Assembly (NCBI GenBank): GCA_003833135.1
Contig: QZLH01001059.1
Location: 24,525-45,783 of the forward strand
From: Oehlia diaphana
Taxonomy: Eukaryota > Glomeromycota > Glomeromycetes > Glomerales > Glomeraceae
DNA: 21,259 nt
Direction of reading: 5' to 3'
Shown: positions 1,996-19,018 of the stretch, in pieces
Layout of the letters: each line of letters opens with the position of its first letter
Position numbering within the stretch: the first letter of the stretch is position 1
The notes under the pieces: generated by a model
Told to the model about the DNA's origin: nothing
Database searches by the model: none
Seen by the model: the letters and a program-made list of their open reading frames with translations, nothing else
Position numbers and translations under genes: made by a program

Positions 1996-4900
1996 ATGGA
2001 AGTCAGACAACGAAATACATTTACTAGTGTTGTAAACTATTTTAATAAGCATAAAGATGAAATAGACGAAATAAACATAAATTATGAAAAAGACGATATC
2101 ACTACGAATAAGGAAGTTTATCAAATTGAACTTTGTCTAGATGGAAGATTTGTTTCTACATTCGATACAGGTAAAAAAACACATGTATTTTGTTAGTAGT
2201 AAACAATTATGTGACTTAAACATATATGATAAATTTTTTACCTTTTTTTTTTCTTTCAAAAAAAATTAAATAGCAAACCTTCGGATCAAAATATTGCAGA
2301 ATACTGATTATCGTCCATTTATGTTCAATAAGAAAAAGAATTTCAGAAATGAAAATGAATTTGAAAAACCCGTCGACATCGATAAAACAATCGCTTATTT
2401 TAAAATAAAAGATGATTTTAGTATTGACAAGCTTTACGACCATGACCCTCCTTCATTTGATGACAACAACGCTGGCTTTTCAGACAATGATGAAAATGGA
2501 ACAAAAAAACCTAATTATGGATGGTCTTTTGATATATCAAATATGCACAAGAATAATGACAAATATTTTATTTTTGTCGCCGTATCCCGCATAAACATTG
2601 ATGAGGATATGAAAGGAAATGATAAGCAGAAAAAGGATGATAATGGAAAATCTGATTATGAAAGAGAACAATTTAGCAAAAAGATATTTAAATGTCCTAC
2701 ACCACCTAAAAAACATGAAAATACAGTAAATTTATCACCTGATGATGAAAGTAGAATAAATATATCACCAACTAACGAAAATATTACTGCAACTAGTAAT
2801 ATAACAGATGAAAGTAAAAAAGGAGTCGCTATTTACCGTATTGAATTAAATAAACGTCAAAATGAAAAGAATGAAAATGGAGAGGATGTAAATAAAGAGA
2901 AGGAAAATGAGGAGAAAGAAAAAGAAAATTATGTTCTTAGCGCTGTGACTTGTTATTCTTATAACAAAATTTCAGGAATATGTAAATTCATTGAAGCTTC
3001 AAATGATGATGATTCAAGTAAAGATGATTCAAGTAAAGATGATTCAAGTGAATACAATTCATATAATCCTGAACTAAGAAGATTTATAATATTGAATTTC
3101 CGTGGAATATATAATATTGAATTTAATGATGATTTTGATTTTTTGAAATTGAATGAAAAATTTGAATACCCACAAAATATTAGATTTGTATTAGATAATT
3201 GGTTTACATTTGCTGAATTTGCTGATTGTACGACTAGAATTCTTTCGTGTATTTACGATAAATATTTTTTGTTTACACGACATAATAATGGCGTGCAATC
3301 ACTTGAAGGTAATTGTTTATTTATCTCGTCATAATTATGTTGAAAATATATTTATTAATTTGACATATTTTTTAGTTTATGATCTGGAAAAAATGGAACA
3401 TAAAGTTAATGCAAGATTTGTTGAAAATATCGTAAATGAATATATTATATATACTTATTCAGTTAGTAGGTTGCAACTTTGCTTTACTCAAGTTAATATT
3501 GTTAAGTAAGTTGTTATGTTAAAAGTTATTAATAATAATCTTTGATTGGTGTATAATTTCATATTATTAATTTTAAATTTATTAGATTTTTTCACATAGA
3601 AAATGGCTTGCAAATCGCATCAAAAGAATTCGAAGAACTAGAAAGAATTTATGTGTTGGAATTTATTGATAGTGATAATAAATTACTTATGATAGGCGAA
3701 GGCCAATGTCTAAAAAAAGGCGGAGATCAAAAAGACGAGGGTCTAGAAGTAGGAAAAGATCTGGAAAAAGGCAAAGATCAAGAAAGTAATAAAGATAAGG
3801 AAGTGAAATTTATAATTTGGGATCTGTACAATACCGGCAAACATGAATTATTAGTGGAGTTAGATGACTTTCCAATTACTAAAACTAACATGGATGATAT
3901 TTACACTCGTTTAGCCATAACTTCGGGAAATATTTTACAAATCAATGATTTTGGAAAAGTTTCGTCGGTTCTTAAAAAAATTGAAAATAAAATCAATAAG
4001 AAAAATCTAGATAAAGCTGCAGGTCCAAATATAATTTTAAAGGTCATGTGTGGAAAGCTAAATGGAAAAGAGGATAAAAATCATAAATTATATTACGATA
4101 AAAATATAAATTTCAGACAAATAGTTAATGACATAGAGCCATGGTTATCGGGTGGTAATAAAAGGACTTCTTATTGTCTTTATTATAATGAAAAAGGAAC
4201 AGAAACAGAAGCTTTACAGCTTATTGTTAGTAGATCAACTGTTCAAATTTGGCATCAAATAAATGATAGTAAAAACAAATTTGAGCTTCCTAACAAAGGG
4301 GAAGCCTTTCTTGAATATATATGGTCAAATCGTATTCCAGTAAAGCAAGAAAGAGAGAAAACGAGATTGAGAATTGAAAAGTTTGAATATGGACCAAATT
4401 ATGGAACAAATAGTAAAACATGTGATTTTTATTTAAAGGTTTATTGGTTTGAAAGAAATGATAGCTCAAAACCGGAAGAACATACAAAAATGACAGAGGA
4501 TGAAATAATAAAGAAAGAAAACAATGAAATAGATGAAATAGAAGATAAGATAAAAAAGAATAATGAAAACAAATACATAGACGAAGCGGAAAAAGAGAAA
4601 ATAAAACAAGAAATAATAAATAATTGTGTAAATGTAAAAATACGAGAAAAAGTGATTCTGGGAAAAGATGTTATTAAAAAATCTCATGTAGCAAGACACG
4701 CTTGCAAAGCATTAGAACATATAAGAAAACGTTATAGAAGTACTAAAAACGATGCGAATAATTATGAAGTAAGTTAAACATGAAAGAATTTAATTAAAGA
4801 TAATTTATTTTTTTTTTTTTGGAAATAATACTATTAACACTCATTAATGCTTCTTATTGATAAAAAGTATGAGAGGTTGACTAACTATATCGAACATATA

Positions 4901-7508
4901 ATCTGGAGATTTGCTAAATATGAACCAGAAAATTTCAGATTATTAGATATTCGATATAATCTTATGAAAAGTTTAATACTTGCTGATTGTGATCGTTTAA
5001 TAAAATTTATATTATTTGGATATGAAGAAACTGCAAAAAATAAAATTGATTACAGACATGTGCCAAGTAATAAATTATGGCCAGGAAAAAAGTTTTTAAA
5101 AGATGATGACCTTGCCTTTTTCAAAAGAGAAGATGAGCTAAAAAAGCCAAAAAATAATATGGAACTAGCAATTTATTATTGTAGAGGTAAATCTAACTTT
5201 ACTGATGTATATAATTAATTACAATAAAAATAACATTATTTTATTTATAGGCCGTGATCCTAAAGATGCGATTATTGTCGCATATCTTTTGGAATATTAC
5301 TCTAGAAATCCAACAAATTGCGTGGGTTGGATGTGTACCGTTTCTAAGGCAATTCCTTTATTATTTGAAAATAAATATGGTTCGTTTTTTATTCTTAATT
5401 TTATTTTCATCCAAAGAGTTTGCGAAATTTATATATTATTACATAAAAACAGACGATTATGCTAGAAAAGTGTTTATTAGATGTTTTGCAGATCAGGATC
5501 ACTCTTCGGGTCAAGATCCTGATGAAATTATTATGGAGGGATACCTAGAATATTACAATTATAGTGACACAAAATTTAGAGCGTTCACACCTATGGTCAG
5601 GCTGATGTCTGATAAACCTAAGTGGTACAATAATTGGATTTGGAACAAACTTAAACATTTCAAAAGTATATTCAAAGAAAATAAAAACTTCGAAAAATCA
5701 TTATTAGCTTTACGAGTGGTTCCCTTTCCTGGTTTTAGTGTAAATAGAATTCCAAAAGAAGAAATAGAATTTACTCCTATAAAATTTATTTTTAATGTTT
5801 TTCTATTCTTATTTATACCACGAAGATACGAGATTAGTCATAATGATATGACTAAGTTAAGCCCTTTTTCTAAGACGATACTATGTAGGAATTTTGATAT
5901 TTATGACAATCCAGCAATTGAAGCAGTTATTGTTCTTTATTGGCGAAAAGCAAGAATTTTTTTTTTTTTCACTTTCTTTCGATTTCTTGTTTTTGCGGCT
6001 TGTTTTGGGTTAATTAGCTGGGCATATTTGGATCATAGCACTATTATAAATCATTATTTTTTATTTGCATTAGTTTTTGTATTCTATTATTTGACAACTT
6101 ATCAACTTATTACTGAAGTGTTACAGTGTCATCATTGTGGATATAAAAAGTATTTGAGTGAAATATTTAATATTCTTGATATAATTTCAATTATGTTTGC
6201 TGTAACAATAATGTCAATAATGCTTAAAAATTTTCAATTTTTTGATGGTTTTGGAAGTGTTAATGAAATTAGCGATAGATTAATTACAGGGATATCATTC
6301 TCAATTTTTTTGCTTTGGATTGAATTGGTAATCTTTGAACTGTATTTGATTATTTAAGTTTTTATATAAGAGTAATTAATTAACTAATTTTAATAATTTT
6401 AGATTTTATATCTACGTCTAATGCCGGGTAAAAAATACAAAATTATTATTAAATTATTATTATTTCATTACATCATTAACCTATTCTTTTCCACTTGCTA
6501 GTTATTGGAATTTATATTTATCATGTCGTAATTATCTTCAAAACTGTATTCCCATTCTTTTTGTTTATTTTAATTGTGATATTCGCATTTGCACACACAA
6601 TGTATAAGGATCTTCTTTTTCTGATTTATTTATTTCATCTTAGGTTTAACTAAGGTTAACTTCTTTTATTTTAATTTATGTAGGTTTGTGCTGCTTGGAA
6701 ATCCCACGAATATTAAGACCAATGATTCTACATATAGTGGAGTTGCTACAAATTCTTTAACCAATGAGTCACTTGTTATTAAACTTAAGTCTGATTTTGA
6801 TCCTATGTCTAGTGATAATCCATTTACATCTTTTACTAAGGCAATGATGGCTACGTATTTTTGGATTAATGGTGATTTGGTTCAAAGAGATGAGTTTGAT
6901 TATTGGGCTGTTGATGTACTTACTTTGATTGCTAGCATATTTCTTGTAATCGTTTTACAAAATATGGTGATTGCTTATATGAGGTAATTTTATTTAACAA
7001 TTTAGCAAATACAACTTATTTGATATTCACTTTAACTGCTTACTATCTTTTTAGTAATGTATATGAAGATGTCATAGCTAAAAGTAGTCAAATTTTATTA
7101 AGGCTCCAAGCAAATTTCATATCAGATTATGAAGCATTACAACATTTTCATTTTTCGAAACCTGGACCTGAACCAAAACATATTTATTACTTTAGTCAAG
7201 CTGACTATTTTGAAAAGTGGTATAATACAATGAGTGATAATGATAAGGGGCCTATCTATAAAAGTTTTGAAATCAACTCTTCACTTACGTTAAGTAGTAT
7301 TATTATAGAAAATGATTATGACAAATATTCACTTTTAACATATAATGATAATATAAAAATTGTGGTTGAAGATTTTATTAAATCAGTGAATGATAATACT
7401 GAGAATTTGATTAAAAGAGCTATAGATAAATATTCAATTGAAAAAATTGATGATATGAAAATTGATATGGATCGTATATTAGAAAGATTGAAGAAACAAT
7501 TTTCGTAA
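1996..7508 (+). CDS. propeller-linked TRP-like ion channel, copy 1 (11 exons, 1574 aa)
   Basis: Exons, all with GT-AG introns: 1996-2170, 2274-3308, 3376-3505, 3586-4768, 4868-5186, 5251-5379, 5453-6327, 6403-6427, 6502-6601, 6684-6983, 7055-7508. Together they give 4725 nt, an exact multiple of three with no internal stop. Residues 1 to about 840 are probably cytosolic, rich in predicted beta strands with WD-like words (FIIWDLY, TVQIWHQI), suggesting a divergent beta-propeller, with acidic low-complexity (DDSSK repeats, about residue 300) and a charged helical stretch (EIDEIEDKIKK). Six hydrophobic segments follow at about 1157-1180, 1191-1213, 1229-1249, 1267-1290, 1292-1323 and 1400-1423. 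A pore loop lies between the last two (ATYFWINGD, the NGD at 1386-1388). This is the Ion_trans/TRP layout, so a membrane cation channel is inferred. The C-terminal tail carries EPKHIYYFS and a charged helix. The propeller reading is the least certain part. The intron 4 acceptor (AAAAAG) is weak but conserved in copy 2. Confidence 0.85.
6403..6427 (+). other. 25-nt microexon 8 of channel copy 1
   Basis: This exon encodes only ILYLRLMP plus one base and carries the end of the fourth membrane segment. It is bounded by ttttag and GTAAAA. It is needed to join the fourth and fifth segments in frame. The same 25-nt exon occurs at 17871-17895 in copy 2 (ILFLRIKT), so two independent sequences support it. 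Confidence 0.8.
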
Positions 7509-8146: not shown

Positions 8147-8296
8147 TTATCTTCTTACAACTTTTTCAAGAAAATTCTTGGCTTCAATAATTTTACTAAC
8201 TAAATAAGGAGAACCACCTTTATCAGGATGATTAAGTATCAAAGTTTTTCTATAAGCCTCTTTAATTTTGGACTCTATTAATATCTTTTTCAATAT
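8147..8296 (-). pseudogene. PAM18: relic of the C-terminal exon of a Pam18/Tim14 J-protein
   Basis: The minus strand reads [20 protein letters not shown], then [15 protein letters not shown], then EKVVRR and a stop at 8147-8149. The HPD triad (8222-8230) and the NHPDxGGSPYLxxKIxEAK signature are those of Pam18/Tim14 (DNAJC19 family), the J-protein that stimulates mitochondrial Hsp70 in the PAM import motor at the inner membrane. About 49 codons are open, bounded upstream by a stop at 8297-8299. A possible splice acceptor (taatag) precedes the serine at 8274. No N-terminal exon or membrane segment could be found upstream to about 8700, so the family's usual N-terminal part is missing. The likely state is a truncated pseudogene. 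A last exon of a gene with a distant first exon is the less likely alternative. Confidence 0.65.
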
Positions 8297-10964: not shown

Positions 10965-12516
10965 TTAATCATCAGTCTTGCACAATTGAAATATCTCAAA
11001 AAAATTTAAAATAAACGAATCATCATTGTTAACTTTGATCTGTTTTTCATAATGTTTTTGATAACAATAGATTTTCCTGTAAATATTAAGAAACCAGCGT
11101 AAACACAGATCACGATCACCAAATGATGGACCATAATCAGGATAATTCATTATAGCATTCATCTCATTCTTTACACGACTTAAAATGTAATTCTCATTAT
11201 TAAAAGAAAATATAAAACTATCTTTGGTAATTCCATAACTAAAATCAGATTTCCACTCAATCGGATTATATCCTCCAATAATCTCATTTCTGTCCTTCAC
11301 TTTAAAAATTGTTACAGTTTGAGAATGATTATCACAAACTTCATGAAATTTTTTAATCCTTTCAGATACTAGCTCACCAGAATCTTCGCTATCGCGGTAT
11401 AATAATTTGAATTCATACGAACTTACTAATTTGTCGGTAATTTCTAATATATTAATCCATTTTGAGATTATTTCAACATGTTTAATTGTAATGATATTAG
11501 AATCGATATTTTTTGATTTAATCTCTTTAATAGTACGAGATACTGATTTTTTGTTTGGATCATAATCATTATCTAAAAAATATTCTAACAAATCATCATA
11601 TAATTCCTTCGGTAAGATTTTTTTATATGGTTTTACTTTCTTCAAAAATTCTTTGGAAGTTAAATTATGGAATTTAATCAGAGGAATACATTTTTGTAAC
11701 GTCTTCTTTAAAGTATTAAAATCATCTTTTGATAAGCTTATAATATCAGAAGAAAGTTCAGGATTTTGTGCAAGTCACCATTTAATTACATGATCCCAAA
11801 CTTGAATTTCACTTATTTGATGATTTTGAATAAGCGTGATTAATAATTTTTCTGGAATCGAAGAGAAATTCGGAGAATTAAATATTTTATTTGATTCTTT
11901 AATAATTAAATTAGTACAATATTTTTGAAGTTCTAAGAAAGAATCGTTTCCAAAACTAGTTTTATATATCAAGTCAATATTTTGTTCGATCCAATTTTTT
12001 TTATTTTCAATTAAAAAGGTTTCTAAATAAGGGATTAATTCTTGAAGGCTGAGCTCATTAGCAGCAACTAAAATTTTAATGATATCTGAAATATCATATT
12101 CTTCTAAAGAGAGTTTTCCTCCATAAATATACCTAAAATAATTTATAAATAATTAAAAAGTTAATAAAAATATATAATTATCTCATGATCACATGATGAA
12201 CATATATAATCATCATTATCGCATGATCACTTGATGAACGAGATTTTATTTATCTTACATTAAGATTATTTGAAAAATTTCGGGTAAAATATTTGGTAAT
12301 TTAATGTTTGTTAAAGTTCCATCATTTTTCTTTTTATTTATTGATAAAATTCTTCTTAAATAAGGAGAACGATAATATAAAATAACCATATGAGCACGAA
12401 ATATTTTTACGTAAGGGTCGTTTACCAACTTCAATTGTAATATCATAATATTCTTCATCGTTTAAAATTTCAAGTAAATTTTGTGATAATTTTGTCAAAA
12501 GTTTATTATCAACCAT
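10965..12516 (-). pseudogene. BTB-BACK-TLDc protein gene with a frameshift and a stop
   Basis: Exon 1 runs 12516-12259 and exon 2 runs 12132-10965, joined by a 126-nt GTAAGA...TTTTAG intron (12133-12258). Starting at MVDNKLLTKL, the BTB/POZ domain shows DITIEVG, FRAHMVILYYRSPYLRRIL and IYGGKLSLEEYD. A BACK-like helical region contains NLIIKES and VWDHVIKW. The C-terminal part is a TLDc domain (FKLLYRDSEDSG, IIGGYNPIEW, FIFSFNNE, PSFGDRDLCL). Two lesions are seen. One extra T in the run at 12421-12423 shifts frame inside the BTB domain right after EVG. A TGA (11775-11777) follows VWDHVIKW where relatives usually have glycine. Without them the product would be about 474 residues, normal for this family. 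Such proteins are usually cullin-3 adaptors (BTB) with a TLDc module. Everything after the second lesion stays open, so decay is recent, or one lesion is an assembly error. Confidence 0.75.
12184..12239. repeat. direct repeat inside the BTB intron
   Basis: catgatcacatgatgaac (12184-12201) and catgatcacttgatgaac (12222-12239) match at 17 of 18 positions with a 38-bp period. Both lie inside the intron of the BTB gene and contain the near-palindrome atgatcacatgat. Confidence 0.6.
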
Positions 12517-12656
12517 TATAAAAAATGATGTAAGTTGAAAAAAAATTAATTTCAATTTTTTTTTTTTTATTTTCAAACAAATATTTTTTTTCCGGTCACA
12601 AGGTAACCATTAACCGGCTAAAATTATTTCCATAAAGTAATTAATAGGTCAATCAC
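12517..12656 (-). promoter_or_regulatory. upstream region of the BTB gene
   Basis: About 140 bp between the BTB start and the edge of duplication copy 2. It is largely shared with the relic at 9606-9933 and holds a T-rich tract followed by the conserved words attaaccg, ctaaaattatttccata and attaataggtcaatcacga. The same words recur upstream of both BTB pieces, which fits a promoter, although no TATA box can be assigned. Together with 12657-13449 it forms the 933-bp divergent spacer between the BTB gene and channel copy 2. Confidence 0.4.
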
Positions 12657-13449: not shown

Positions 13450-16400
13450 ATGGAGTCTAGAAGTGTAGTAAATTATTTTAAGCATAAAGACGCCATAAAT
13501 ATATATTATGGAAAAGACGATATCACTACGAACAAGGAAGATTATCAAATTGACCTTTGTCAAGATGGACGGTTTGCTGTTACATTCGATACAGGTAAAA
13601 AAAAAGCACATGAATTTTATTAGTAGTAAACAATTATGCGACTTAAACATATATGGCTAAGTTTTTTTTTGCCTTTTTTTTTAAAAAAAAAAAAATTTAA
13701 ATAGCAAACCTTCGGATCAAAATATTGCAGAATACTGATTATCGTCCATTTATATTCGATAAGAAAAAGAATTTCAGAAATGAAAATGAACTTAGAGCAT
13801 CTGTTAAAAATTGATAAAACAATCGCTTATTTTAAAATAAATAATGATTTTAGTATAGACAAACTCTACGACCATGACCCTCCTCTATTTAATGGCAACA
13901 ACGTTGGCTTTTCAGACAATAATGAAAATGGAACAAAAAAACCTAATTTTAGATGGTCTTTTGATATATCAAATATGCACAAGAATAATGGCAAATATTT
14001 TATTTTTGTCGCCGTATCCCGCATAAACATTGATGAGGATATGAAAGGAAAAATGGATGATATGAAAGGAAACGATAAGCAGAAAAAGAATAATAATGGA
14101 AAATCTGATTATGAAAGAGAACAATTTAGCAAATGGATATTTACACCATCTAAAGAACATGAAAATATACTACCCAACGATGAAAATAGAATAAATATAC
14201 CATCAACTGACGAAAATATTACCGCAACTAGTAACACAACAGATGAAAGTAAAAAAGGAGTCGCTATTTATCGTATTGAATTAAATAAATGTCAAAAAGA
14301 AAAGAATGAAAATGAAGAGAAGGAAAAAGAAAATTATGTTCTTAGCGCTGTGACTTGTTATTATTATAACAAAATTTCAGGAATATGTAAATTCATTGAA
14401 GTTTCAAATGATGATGATTCAAGTAAAGATGATTCAAGTGAATACAATTCACATAATTCTGAACTAAGAAGATTTATAATATTGAATTTCCGTGGAATAT
14501 ATAATATTGAATTTAATGATGATCTTGATTTTTTGAATTTGAATGAAAAATTTGAATATCCACAAAATATTAGATTTGTATTAGATAGTACGAATAGACT
14601 TCTTTCGTGTATTTACGATAAGTATTTTTTGTATTTTTTGTTTACACGATATAATAATGGCGTGCAATCACTTAAAGGTAATTGTTTATATATTTATCTC
14701 GTCTTAATAATGTTAAAAATATATTTATTAATGATATACTTTTTAGTTTATGATCTGGCAAAAATGGAGCATGAAATTGATGCAAGTCTTGTTGAAAATA
14801 TCGTAAATGAATTTGAAGAATATAATGATTATATTTTTTCAGTTAGTAGGTTACAACTTTGCTTTACTCAAGTTAATGTTGTTAAGTAAGTTGTTATGTT
14901 AAAGTTATTAATAATAATCTTTGATTGATGCGTAATTTCACATTATTAATTTTAAATTTATTAGATTATTTCATATAGAAAATGGCTTGGAAATCGCGTC
15001 AAAAAAATTTAAAGAACTAAAAAAAATTTATTTGTTGGAATTTATTGATAGTGATAAAAAATTATTTATAATAGGCGAGGGTCTAAAAGTAGAAAGAGAT
15101 CAAGTCAAAAAAGTGCTGAAGTTTATAATTTGGGATCTGTACAATACCGGCGAACATGAATCAGTGGAGGAGTTATACGATTTTCCAATTACTAAAACTA
15201 ACATGGATGATATTTACACTCGTTTAGCCATAACTTCGGGAAATATTTTACAAATCGATGATCATGGAAAAGTTTCATCAGTTCTTAAAAAAGTTGAAAA
15301 AGAAATCAATAAGAAAAAATTAGATCAAGCTGCAGTTCCAATAGGTCCAAACTTAACAAAAATTTTTGGAAAGTTAAATGAAAAAGATGATAAAAATCAT
15401 ATTATACATTACGATGAAAGAGTAAATTTCAGACAAATAGTTAATGACAGAGAACCATGGTTACCGGATGGTAGTGCAAGGACTTCTTATTGTCTTTATT
15501 ATAATGAAAAAGGAACGGAAACAGAAACTTTACAGCTTCTTGTTGGTAGATCAACTGTTCAAATTTGGCATCAAATAAATGATGATAGTAAAAACAAAGA
15601 TGAACTTCCTAACAAAGGAGAAGCATTTCTTGAATATATATGGTCAAATCGTATTCCGGTAAAACAAGAAGGAAATATAACGAGATTAAGAATTGAAAAG
15701 TTTGAATATGGGCCAAATTATGGATCAGAAAGTAAAATAAATGATTTTTATTTAAAGGTTTGTTGGTTTGAAAGAATTGTTAGTAGTTCAAAACTGGAAG
15801 AACATACAAAAATGACAGAGGACGAAATAATAAAGAAAGAAAACAATGAAATAGATGAAATAGAAGATAAGATAAAAAAGAATAATGAAAACAAAGACAG
15901 AAACGAAGCGGAAAAAGAGAAAATAAAACAAGAAATAATAAATAATTGTGTAAATATAAAAATACGAGAAAAAGTGATTCTAGGAAAAGATGTTATTAAA
16001 AAATCTCATGTAGCAAGACACGCTTGCAAAGCATTAGAACATACAAGAAAACGTTATAAAAGTAAAAGCGATGCGGATAATTATAAAGTAAGTTAAACAC
16101 GAAAGAATTTAATTAAAGTTTATTTATTTATTTATTTATTTTGGAAATAATACTAATAACACTCATTAACGCTTCTTATTAATAAAAAGTATGAGAGGTT
16201 TTCTAACTATATCGAACATATAATCTGGAGATTTGCTAAATATGAACCAGAAAATTTCAGATTATTAGATATTCGATATAATCTTATGAAAAGTTTAATA
16301 CTGGCTGATTGTGATCGTTTAATAAAATTTATATTATTTGGATATGAAGAAACCGCCAAAAATAAAATTGATTACAGACATGTACCAAGCAGTAAATTAT

Positions 16401-19018
16401 GGCCAGGAAAAAAGTTTTTAAAAGATGATGACCTTGATTTTGACGAAAGAGAATATGGTCTAAAAAAGCCAGAAAATAATGATCTTCACGTTAACAAAAA
16501 AAAGCCAGAAAATATGAAACAAGCAATTTATTATTATTGTAAAAATATTTACCTTTACTTTTTCAGAAGTGAACTAAAAAAGCCAGAAAATAATATGGAA
16601 TTAGCAATTTATTATTGTAGAGGTATATCTAACGTTAATTATAATTAATAATACTACAACATAAAGTAACAATATTTTATTTATAGGTCGTGAGCTTAAA
16701 GATGCGATTAAAGTTGCTTATCTTTTGGAATATTACTCCAGAAATCCTACGAATTGTGTGGGTTGGATGTGTACCGTTTCTAAGGCAATTCCTTTATTAT
16801 TTAAATATAATTATGGTTCGTTTTTCTTTTTTAATTTTAATTTTATTTTCATCCAAAATTTGTGAAATTTATATATATATTTTTTTTTTTTTTACATGAA
16901 ACTTAGACGATTTTGCCAGGAAGTTATTTATCAGATGCTTTGCAGAGGGTCATCTCTCAGGTCAAGATCCTGACGAAATTATTCCAAAAGGATACTTAGA
17001 AAATTACAACAGTGACACCAAATTTAGAGCTTTGATACCTTTTGTTAAGTTGAAGTCTGATGAATCTGCTAAACTTAAGTGGTACGATCATAATTGGATT
17101 TGGAACAAATTTAAAGATTTAATAATAAATAAACTCAAAGGATATAGAAACTTCGAAAAATCACCATTAGCTTTACGAATTGTTCCATTTCCTGGTTTTA
17201 CTATAAATAGCATTAAAAAGGACAAAAAAAAGCTTAACTTATTTGAAAAATTTTTAAGTCCCCTTTCGTCTATACTTATACCAAAACCGCGTCAAATCAA
17301 AAAAAATGAAACGAATAAGTTGAGTCCTTTTTCTAGGATGATACTGTATGAGAATAATGGTGATGTTTATGATAATCCAGCAATTGAAGCAGTTATCAAT
17401 TTTCGTTGGCAAAAGACAAAATATTACTTGTATTTTCTCTGCCTTCGTTTTCTGATTTTTGGCTTTTGTTTTATGTTAGTTAGTTTGGCATATTTGGATC
17501 GTAGTTTTATTGTAAATGGAATTTTTTTATTAGTTTTGATTATTGTATTCTATTATTTGGCAATTTATCTATTTATTATTGAAGTGAAACAGATTCGTTA
17601 TCGTGGACCTGAAAAATATATGCTTGATATACTTAACATTGTTGATATGATTTCTATTATACTTCCTGTAACGGTAATGTCGATAATGCTTTTTGAATTT
17701 CAACTCTCTAATGGTTTTAGAAGTAGAAGTATTGAAGAACCTGGTTCTAAATTAGTTGTAGAGATATCATTCTCAATTTTCTTTATTTGGATACAATTTG
17801 TAAGTTTTTATTTATATATGAATACTTTTTTTTCTATATAAAGTTAATTAAACAATTTATTATTTTTTAGATTTTATTTCTCCGTATAAAAACAAGTAAA
17901 AAGAAAACATTTTATTTAATTATTATTTGTATACCTAAATATAATTTCACAACGAATTATTAATTATTATATTATTTTTCCATTATGCATCAGATATTGG
18001 AATTTATATTTATTACGTTGTAATTATTTTCGAAGCCATAATTCCATTTCTTTGGTTTATGTTTTTTGTGATACTTGCATTTGCACACACAATGTATTTA
18101 AAATATTTTTTTATTATTTTCCAAGTTATTGATTTCATTTCCAAATTTCAATACAATTAATTCTTCTTTATTTTATAATATATATAGGTTTATTCTTCTT
18201 AGAGATCCTAAGTATATGAAAATCAAAGAATCCTCATATAGTGGAAATTTTACAAATTTAACAACAAAAGAGACACTTAATATTACGCTTAAATCCGATT
18301 TTAAACCCACATCTAGTGAAGATAATCCATTTTCAACCTTTTATACAGCAATACAAGCTGCGTATTTTTGGATTAGTGGTGATTGGGTTCAAAGAGATGA
18401 TTTTGAATATTGGGCTGTTGACTTCTTTACCTTGATTGCTAGTATATTCCTTGTAATCATTTTACAAAATATATTGATTGCTTTTATGAAGTAAGTATTT
18501 TTTTTTACAAATTTAGTAACTTATTTGTCTTCTTTTATATTTATTTATTTGCTTTATTTAGTGGTGTTTATGTAACGGCAGGAACTAGAGGCAAACAAAA
18601 ATTATTAAGATATCAAGCAAATTATATAGCAACTTTTGAAGCATTAAATGTTCGTTTTTCTGATTCTGAACTTGAATATGAACCAAAACATATATATTAC
18701 TTTAGTCTAGCTAAAAATTTTGAAGAATGGTATGATACAAGAAAAGGTGAACAAGGTGCTATTTATAAAGATTATGAAGAAGAAACATGTATATTTACGA
18801 CAAGCAGTATATTTAGAGAAAGAGATTATGACAAATATTCATCTTTAACATATAATGATAATATTAAAATTATAGTTGAAGATTTTATTAAATCAGTGGA
18901 TGATAATACTAAGAATTTGATTAAAAGAGCTACAGATAAAAATTCAATTAAAGAAATTGATGATGTGAAAGATGATTTAAATCGTATATTAGAAAAATTG
19001 AAGAAAAAATATTTGTAA
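13450..19018 (+). CDS. propeller-linked TRP-like ion channel, copy 2 (one frameshift in exon 2)
   Basis: Exons by homology to copy 1: 13450-13594, 13705-14677, 14747-14885, 14965-16087, 16190-16622, 16687-16815, 16907-17799, 17871-17895, 17994-18093, 18188-18490, 18562-19018. All splice sites and phases agree with copy 1, but the total is 4720 nt, one base too many. The extra base lies between 13789 and 13813, probably in the A run at 13806-13810, and brings stops directly after VKN. If intron 1 instead ends at tttcag (13777) or ttag (13795), the frame is restored, giving about 1548 or 1542 residues and losing roughly 25-30 near residue 50. All later exons are open. The channel part keeps six hydrophobic segments, ILFLRIKT in the microexon, pore YFWISGDW and the tail motif EPKHIYYFS. 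Exon 5 carries a 38-codon insertion built from a tandem copy of its own end. The gene is either functional through alternative splicing, a young pseudogene, or carries an assembly error. Confidence 0.75.

Follow-up and report, generated by a model that had tools for sequence, protein, structure and literature searches.

Known channels and the present locus

Little is settled about how arbuscular mycorrhizal fungi perceive plants and soil, and transforming these fungi is difficult. The closest described channels for the locus considered here are TRPV1–TRPV6 of the transient receptor potential (TRP) superfamily, which carry N-terminal ankyrin repeats; YVC1/TRPY1 of yeast is likewise a fungal TRP channel and, to our knowledge, has no propeller. 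According to the available parts of two studies, TRP-CC channels seem to be duplicated in Glomeromycotina (PMC8778642), and Rhizophagus irregularis has 32 TRPV-like genes that were dated to Mucoromycota level (PMC10234402). The locus itself, gene A, lies in Oehlia diaphana, in a stretch of 21,259 bases (the window; contig QZLH01001059.1, C1023 in our numbering, 24525-45783) of a 108.8 Mb assembly that was searched as a whole. Its protein of 1574 residues has a predicted beta-propeller, a further beta region and a linker before the channel, whereas TRPV1–TRPV6 have ankyrin repeats. On present evidence the likely product of the locus is a cation channel of TRPV-like type, most likely a tetramer, with a propeller instead of ankyrin repeats, in which gating would run through the linker.

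One reading frame and two paired halves

Gene A was rebuilt from the raw sequence, and this reconstruction bore out the gap-free, 11-exon frame of 1574 residues that a first-pass annotation had proposed. The exons are separated by ten GT-AG introns and occupy the following window coordinates:

1996..7508, + strand: gene A, spliced reading frame, with its ATG at 1996 and its stop ending at 7508
1996-2170, 2274-3308, 3376-3505 and 3586-4768, + strand: exons 1-4
4868-5186, 5251-5379, 5453-6327 and 6403-6427, + strand: exons 5-8
6502-6601, 6684-6983 and 7055-7508, + strand: exons 9-11
6403..6427, + strand: microexon 8 of 25 bases; its counterpart in the neighboring gene B (17871-17895) also has 25 bases

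The deposited protein C1646_812538 (P0001) of Rhizophagus diaphanus, a species entered at NCBI as Oehlia diaphana, is 1515 residues long. It differs from gene A by 6 mismatches and 59 gap columns, all of them within residues 794-816 and 1283-1324, and is identical at every other residue. Both divergent stretches correspond to sequence omitted by the gene model of P0001, which lacks most of exons 8 and 9. Because the second stretch holds most of the S5 helix, the 11-exon model seems preferable to the deposited one. Among the R. irregularis proteins in the matches listed, P0002 is the closest, with 91% identity along 100% of the query. Of the 72 listed relatives whose BLAST coverage spans both S3-S4 and S6, 22 have none over S5, P0001 among them. 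Since the P0001 model omits S5 around exons 8 and 9, standard annotation can hide pores that appear intact in the DNA.

Work on the whole genome also addressed the pairing of the two halves, which were searched separately with exon 4 (sensor) and exon 7 (end of the linker and S1-S4). The 69 and 51 rows obtained collapse to 38 sensor loci and 48 channel loci. At 34 of the 38 sensor loci a channel locus follows downstream on the same strand, 687-2255 bases away, and in 31 of these 34 the spacing is 687-985 bases; by our own arithmetic, which ignores clustering, about 0.02 loci would pair by chance. The four unpaired sensor loci comprise two at contig ends (C1589 and C488) and two short fragments.

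It is conceivable that a propeller gene and a channel gene are merely neighbors that were wrongly joined by reading across the frame. With 60% coverage as the threshold, the propeller alone is covered in 32 of the 120 listed relatives and the channel alone in 9, and 14 of the 48 channel loci have no adjoining sensor match (one, on C292, stands at a contig end, and several others are fragments or bear stops). Set against this are the 75 listed relatives that hold both halves, the frame that continues through all ten introns, and the order, strand and spacing kept across the genome. A wrongly joined pair is thus highly improbable; artefactual fusion was rejected on the 34 paired sensor loci, and as far as frame and family go, the architecture is real.

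The N-terminal half

Two beta regions are predicted in the N-terminal half of protein A:

2119..4012, + strand: predicted beta-propeller domain, about residues 42-589, encoded by exons 1-4; its best matches are seven-bladed propellers
4037..4456, + strand: further predicted strands, residues 598-737, including TVQIWHQI; from the structure model, either extra blades or a separate beta domain

A propeller fold was found in the predicted structure of a relative, P0098, by structure comparison (Foldseek), a model that leaves blade count and ring closure unproven. About 37 strands are predicted in its N-terminal part, and most structural matches listed cover P0098 residues 46-555. The model and its matches support the propeller-like region proposed on first inspection. 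One of the two sequence words that had prompted that proposal, FIIWDLY (522-528), falls inside the stretch that is matched as a propeller in most rows; the other, TVQIWHQI (665-672), falls outside that stretch.

By sequence this is not a WD40 repeat protein, since the WD40 repeat profile (PF00400) has no match in protein A at E up to 1. The same profile was not found on the contig among the 150 of 433 candidates that were scored, and no Pfam family scores above its cut-off in the window protein. The best structural matches are the PROPPINs Hsv2 and Atg18, at 7-14% identity in the listed rows, and matches also include scaffold proteins. PROPPINs bind phosphoinositide lipids through an FRRG motif. 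A word of the form [FL]RRG occurs in only 1 of 233 relatives, so that PROPPIN-like lipid binding through the known motif was rejected.

Linker, membrane part and pore

The C-terminal half was laid out from predicted structures, with the model of a second relative, P0064, mapped on protein A:

4679..5481, + strand: predicted helical linker, residues 812-1000, from the structure model; proposed coupling domain
5911..6420, + strand: predicted helices S1-S4, residues 1144-1288, from the mapped P0064 model and hydropathy
6424..6693, + strand: predicted S5, residues 1290-1327, from the mapped P0064 model
6832..6897, + strand: predicted pore helix and filter, TYFWINGDLVQ, from the P0064 model (predicted local distance difference test, pLDDT, of 40-51 for the block), with the filter aligned to that of TRPV4
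6895..7136, + strand: predicted S6 and the helix behind it, residues 1395-1451, with LQNMVIAYM, from the mapped P0064 model

The mapped model has six transmembrane helices and, between S5 and S6, a pore helix of low confidence; its predicted membrane part has a TRPV-type transmembrane fold. The six hydrophobic segments and pore loop expected earlier are thus present in the model, although hydropathy shows seven regions, with an additional hydrophobic stretch at residues 1095-1113. The region ahead of the channel had been put at about 840 residues; it is instead about 1,100-1,140 residues long, with S1 beginning at about 1144 in the mapped model.

Comparison of the window protein with sequences in the PDB gave 19 matches at E up to 1. 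TRPA1 or TRPV channels account for 18 of them (E 0.0023-0.52), and with the family profile E falls to 2.1e-5. Ion_trans lies above its cut-off in 7 of the 14 relatives scanned (P0006, P0036, P0129, P0135, P0141, P0178 and P0179), several of the 14 having been chosen for their precomputed Ion_trans label. Some relatives also carry a precomputed PF23317 (YVC1_C) label, which the Pfam scans made here did not reproduce. Similarity of protein A to TRPV channels in sequence is marginal. We place the family in the TRP/Ion_trans superfamily, where it would work in a TRPV-like way; with no ankyrin repeats found (no Pfam match of the ankyrin family in protein A at E up to 1), we do not classify it as a TRPV. 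The layout is indeed a non-standard one for TRP channels, as first suggested, with a part that fits a propeller where TRPV has ankyrin repeats.

Mean pairwise identity in family alignment A1 is highest, among the eight regions compared, in the linker (0.67); it is 0.63 in S5-S6, 0.60 in the strands at 598-737, 0.59 in S1-S4 and 0.50 in the propeller.

The tandem copy and its mosaic history

A second copy with the same exon layout lies downstream:

13450..19018, + strand: gene B, tandem paralogue of gene A with the same 11-exon layout

Two tandem copies had been noted at the outset, and the second is there with its layout kept, although exon 2 (13450-14677 region) carries a break in the frame. 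It is open from an ATG at 13780, which gives 1499 residues, and read from there it would lose the first propeller strands. Gene B is either a damaged copy, a gene for a shortened protein or the product of an assembly error.

The likeness between A and B is markedly uneven. Over residues 90-841 the two are 83% identical, with a synonymous divergence (dS) of 0.14-0.16 by two methods; over residues 1151-1440 they are 54% identical, with a dS of 0.38-0.55 by two methods. Introns 1-4 are 82-95% alike and introns 5-10 47-82%. In R. irregularis, P0002 and P0005 are 84% identical over residues 90-737 and 59% over 1144-1451. Between the species, the membrane part is 96% identical for A and P0002 and 90% for B and P0005. 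The halves of the tandem copies thus have different histories, probably because their sensor halves recombined or underwent conversion. As the R. irregularis counterparts show a like unevenness, gene conversion restricted to this species was rejected as its cause.

The overall ratio of nonsynonymous to synonymous divergence (dN/dS) between A and B is 0.44-0.62 by two methods, below 1. Constraint of this moderate degree, together with the broken frame of gene B and the stops present in several channel-exon copies, would also be expected if much of the family, and perhaps gene A too, were decaying tandem-array material without channel function. Gene A nevertheless stays open over 1574 codons, and P0002, its counterpart in R. 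irregularis, shows 96% identity to it across the linker as well as the membrane part, which makes general decay rather improbable.

Family and taxonomic range

Searches found 126 relatives (120 listed) with the gene A protein and 14 with alignment A3, which extended the range to Funneliformis and Cetraspora. A further 114 matches came from a search with a divergent relative encoded in this genome (24% identity to A across its best stretch), in which the 7993 candidates with the most words in common were scored; with it the range grew by Entrophospora, Acaulospora, Diversispora, Geosiphon, Gigaspora and Ambispora. The searches need shared five-letter words, and remoter relatives may be missed. 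The genera named among the matches listed are Rhizophagus, Glomus, Funneliformis, Cetraspora, Gigaspora, Diversispora, Acaulospora, Entrophospora, Ambispora and Geosiphon, all ten of which we take to belong to Glomeromycotina. This range rests on the named, listed matches; P0132, P0139, P0145, P0152, P0173, P0174, P0175 and P0191 carry no species name.

The lineage-specific family suggested by the first-pass annotation agrees with these named matches, but the Mucoromycota-level dating given in the available part of PMC10234402 is older than the range found here. By genus and TRPV-like description alone, the 32 genes reported there are very probably the same family. Expansion of the channels is already published. 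The words WD40 and propeller are absent from the main text of PMC10234402, as is WD40 from that of PMC8778642, as far as these sources were available. A propeller-TRP fusion in fungi was not found in the literature searched, from which subscription papers mostly fall outside, and this is no proof of absence; as far as the searches show, the propeller-channel architecture has not been described before.

A wider proposal, which we put forward tentatively and hold at less than an even chance, is that these proteins form a new TRP subfamily confined to Glomeromycotina, with a cytosolic propeller replacing ankyrin repeats as the sensor of a TRPV-type pore, some tens of copies that arose partly in tandem arrays, and filters of the GD, GN and DN types. 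If true, these fungi, which are obligate symbionts of plants, would translate many chemical or protein cues into cation signals, and multi-copy channels whose large sensor lies in the cytosol would offer ready candidates for mycorrhizal sensing. The family would also be evidence that sensors without an ankyrin fold can drive a TRPV-type pore, which bears on the evolution of TRP gating.

Two other frames of the same genome end in a channel domain. A 1379-codon frame (L039:1761-5897, + strand) has Ion_trans near its end (44.3 bits); its N-terminal part has no BLAST match to A and a weak WDHD1-type WD40 match (E 0.014), and it may represent another channel family, headed by a propeller-like part. 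The other, of 1281 codons (L042:476-4318, + strand), ends in Ion_trans (39.6 bits) and starts with a MYND-like zinc finger that scores 19.3 bits, below the cut-off of 22.7.

Proposed mechanism and its weighing

In the proposed mechanism, the N-terminal propeller and the further beta region would lie in the cytosol, joined by the conserved helical linker to S1-S6. A cytosolic ligand or protein partner would bind to the propeller, and this signal would travel through the linker to the helix behind S6. That helix would then open a cation pore, probably Ca2+-permeable, so that the propeller would gate the pore. The copies, partly in tandem arrays, could serve the fungus as a set of differently tuned channels. 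Since identity in the linker exceeds that in the propeller, with S5-S6 in between, the family agrees with a sensor that varies, coupling that stays constant and a pore that is fairly constant. At the filter the residue varies, so that copies may also differ in ion selectivity, with possible subtypes: in alignment A2 (54 rows; P0064 residue 762) the column holds 28 D, 20 N, 3 I, 1 E and 2 gaps, gene A having D.

The main rival is that the propeller acts as a scaffold or sorting platform, fixing the channel to a partner complex or membrane compartment without gating it. Propellers mostly serve as protein-interaction platforms, scaffold proteins occur among the structural matches, and the propeller is less conserved than the linker. 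That the most conserved region lies between propeller and pore fits mechanical coupling instead, and the halves keep a fixed order; both are still compatible with a scaffold. We regard this alternative as possible though on balance unlikely.

Several findings weigh against a linker-gated channel with a propeller head. Both structure models were made from relatives and not from the window protein. Foldseek template-modeling (TM) scores by query are low, at 0.08-0.18 for the N-terminal part and 0.20-0.26 for the channel part, and in the channel model the blocks of pore helix, filter and S6 have pLDDT values of only 40-75. No Pfam profile recognizes a propeller in protein A, and self-comparison of the profile for blade repeats gave none. 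The best 60 of 74 rows from family profile A1 against PDB sequences hold TRP channels only and no propeller protein. Window copy A falls below the Ion_trans cut-off, and the remaining PDB match is the coiled-coil protein SYCP1, on residues 751-844. The variable filter residue, the channel loci without a sensor match, the only moderate constraint and the broken frame of copy B belong on the same side.

Some of these results would also follow if the N-terminal part were beta-rich without forming a closed propeller, the match being a by-product of many antiparallel strands. The missing WD40 match and sequence repeats and the low TM-scores point that way, and the roughly 37 strands exceed the need of seven blades. 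Given the propeller fold found in the P0098 model and its seven-bladed best matches, this alternative is decidedly improbable.

Neighboring sequences in the window

Between genes A and B, the minus strand at 10965-12152 encodes a BACK domain (23.4 bits) followed by TLDc (55 bits), which suggests a BTB-TLDc type gene; the frame upstream of it (12334-12609) has no Pfam match. Also on the minus strand, at 8147-8296, a frame of 49 residues that includes HPDKGG looks like a piece of a J domain. It scores 22.5 bits for DnaJ and 20.5 bits for Pam16, both under the cut-off, and is perhaps a gene remnant.
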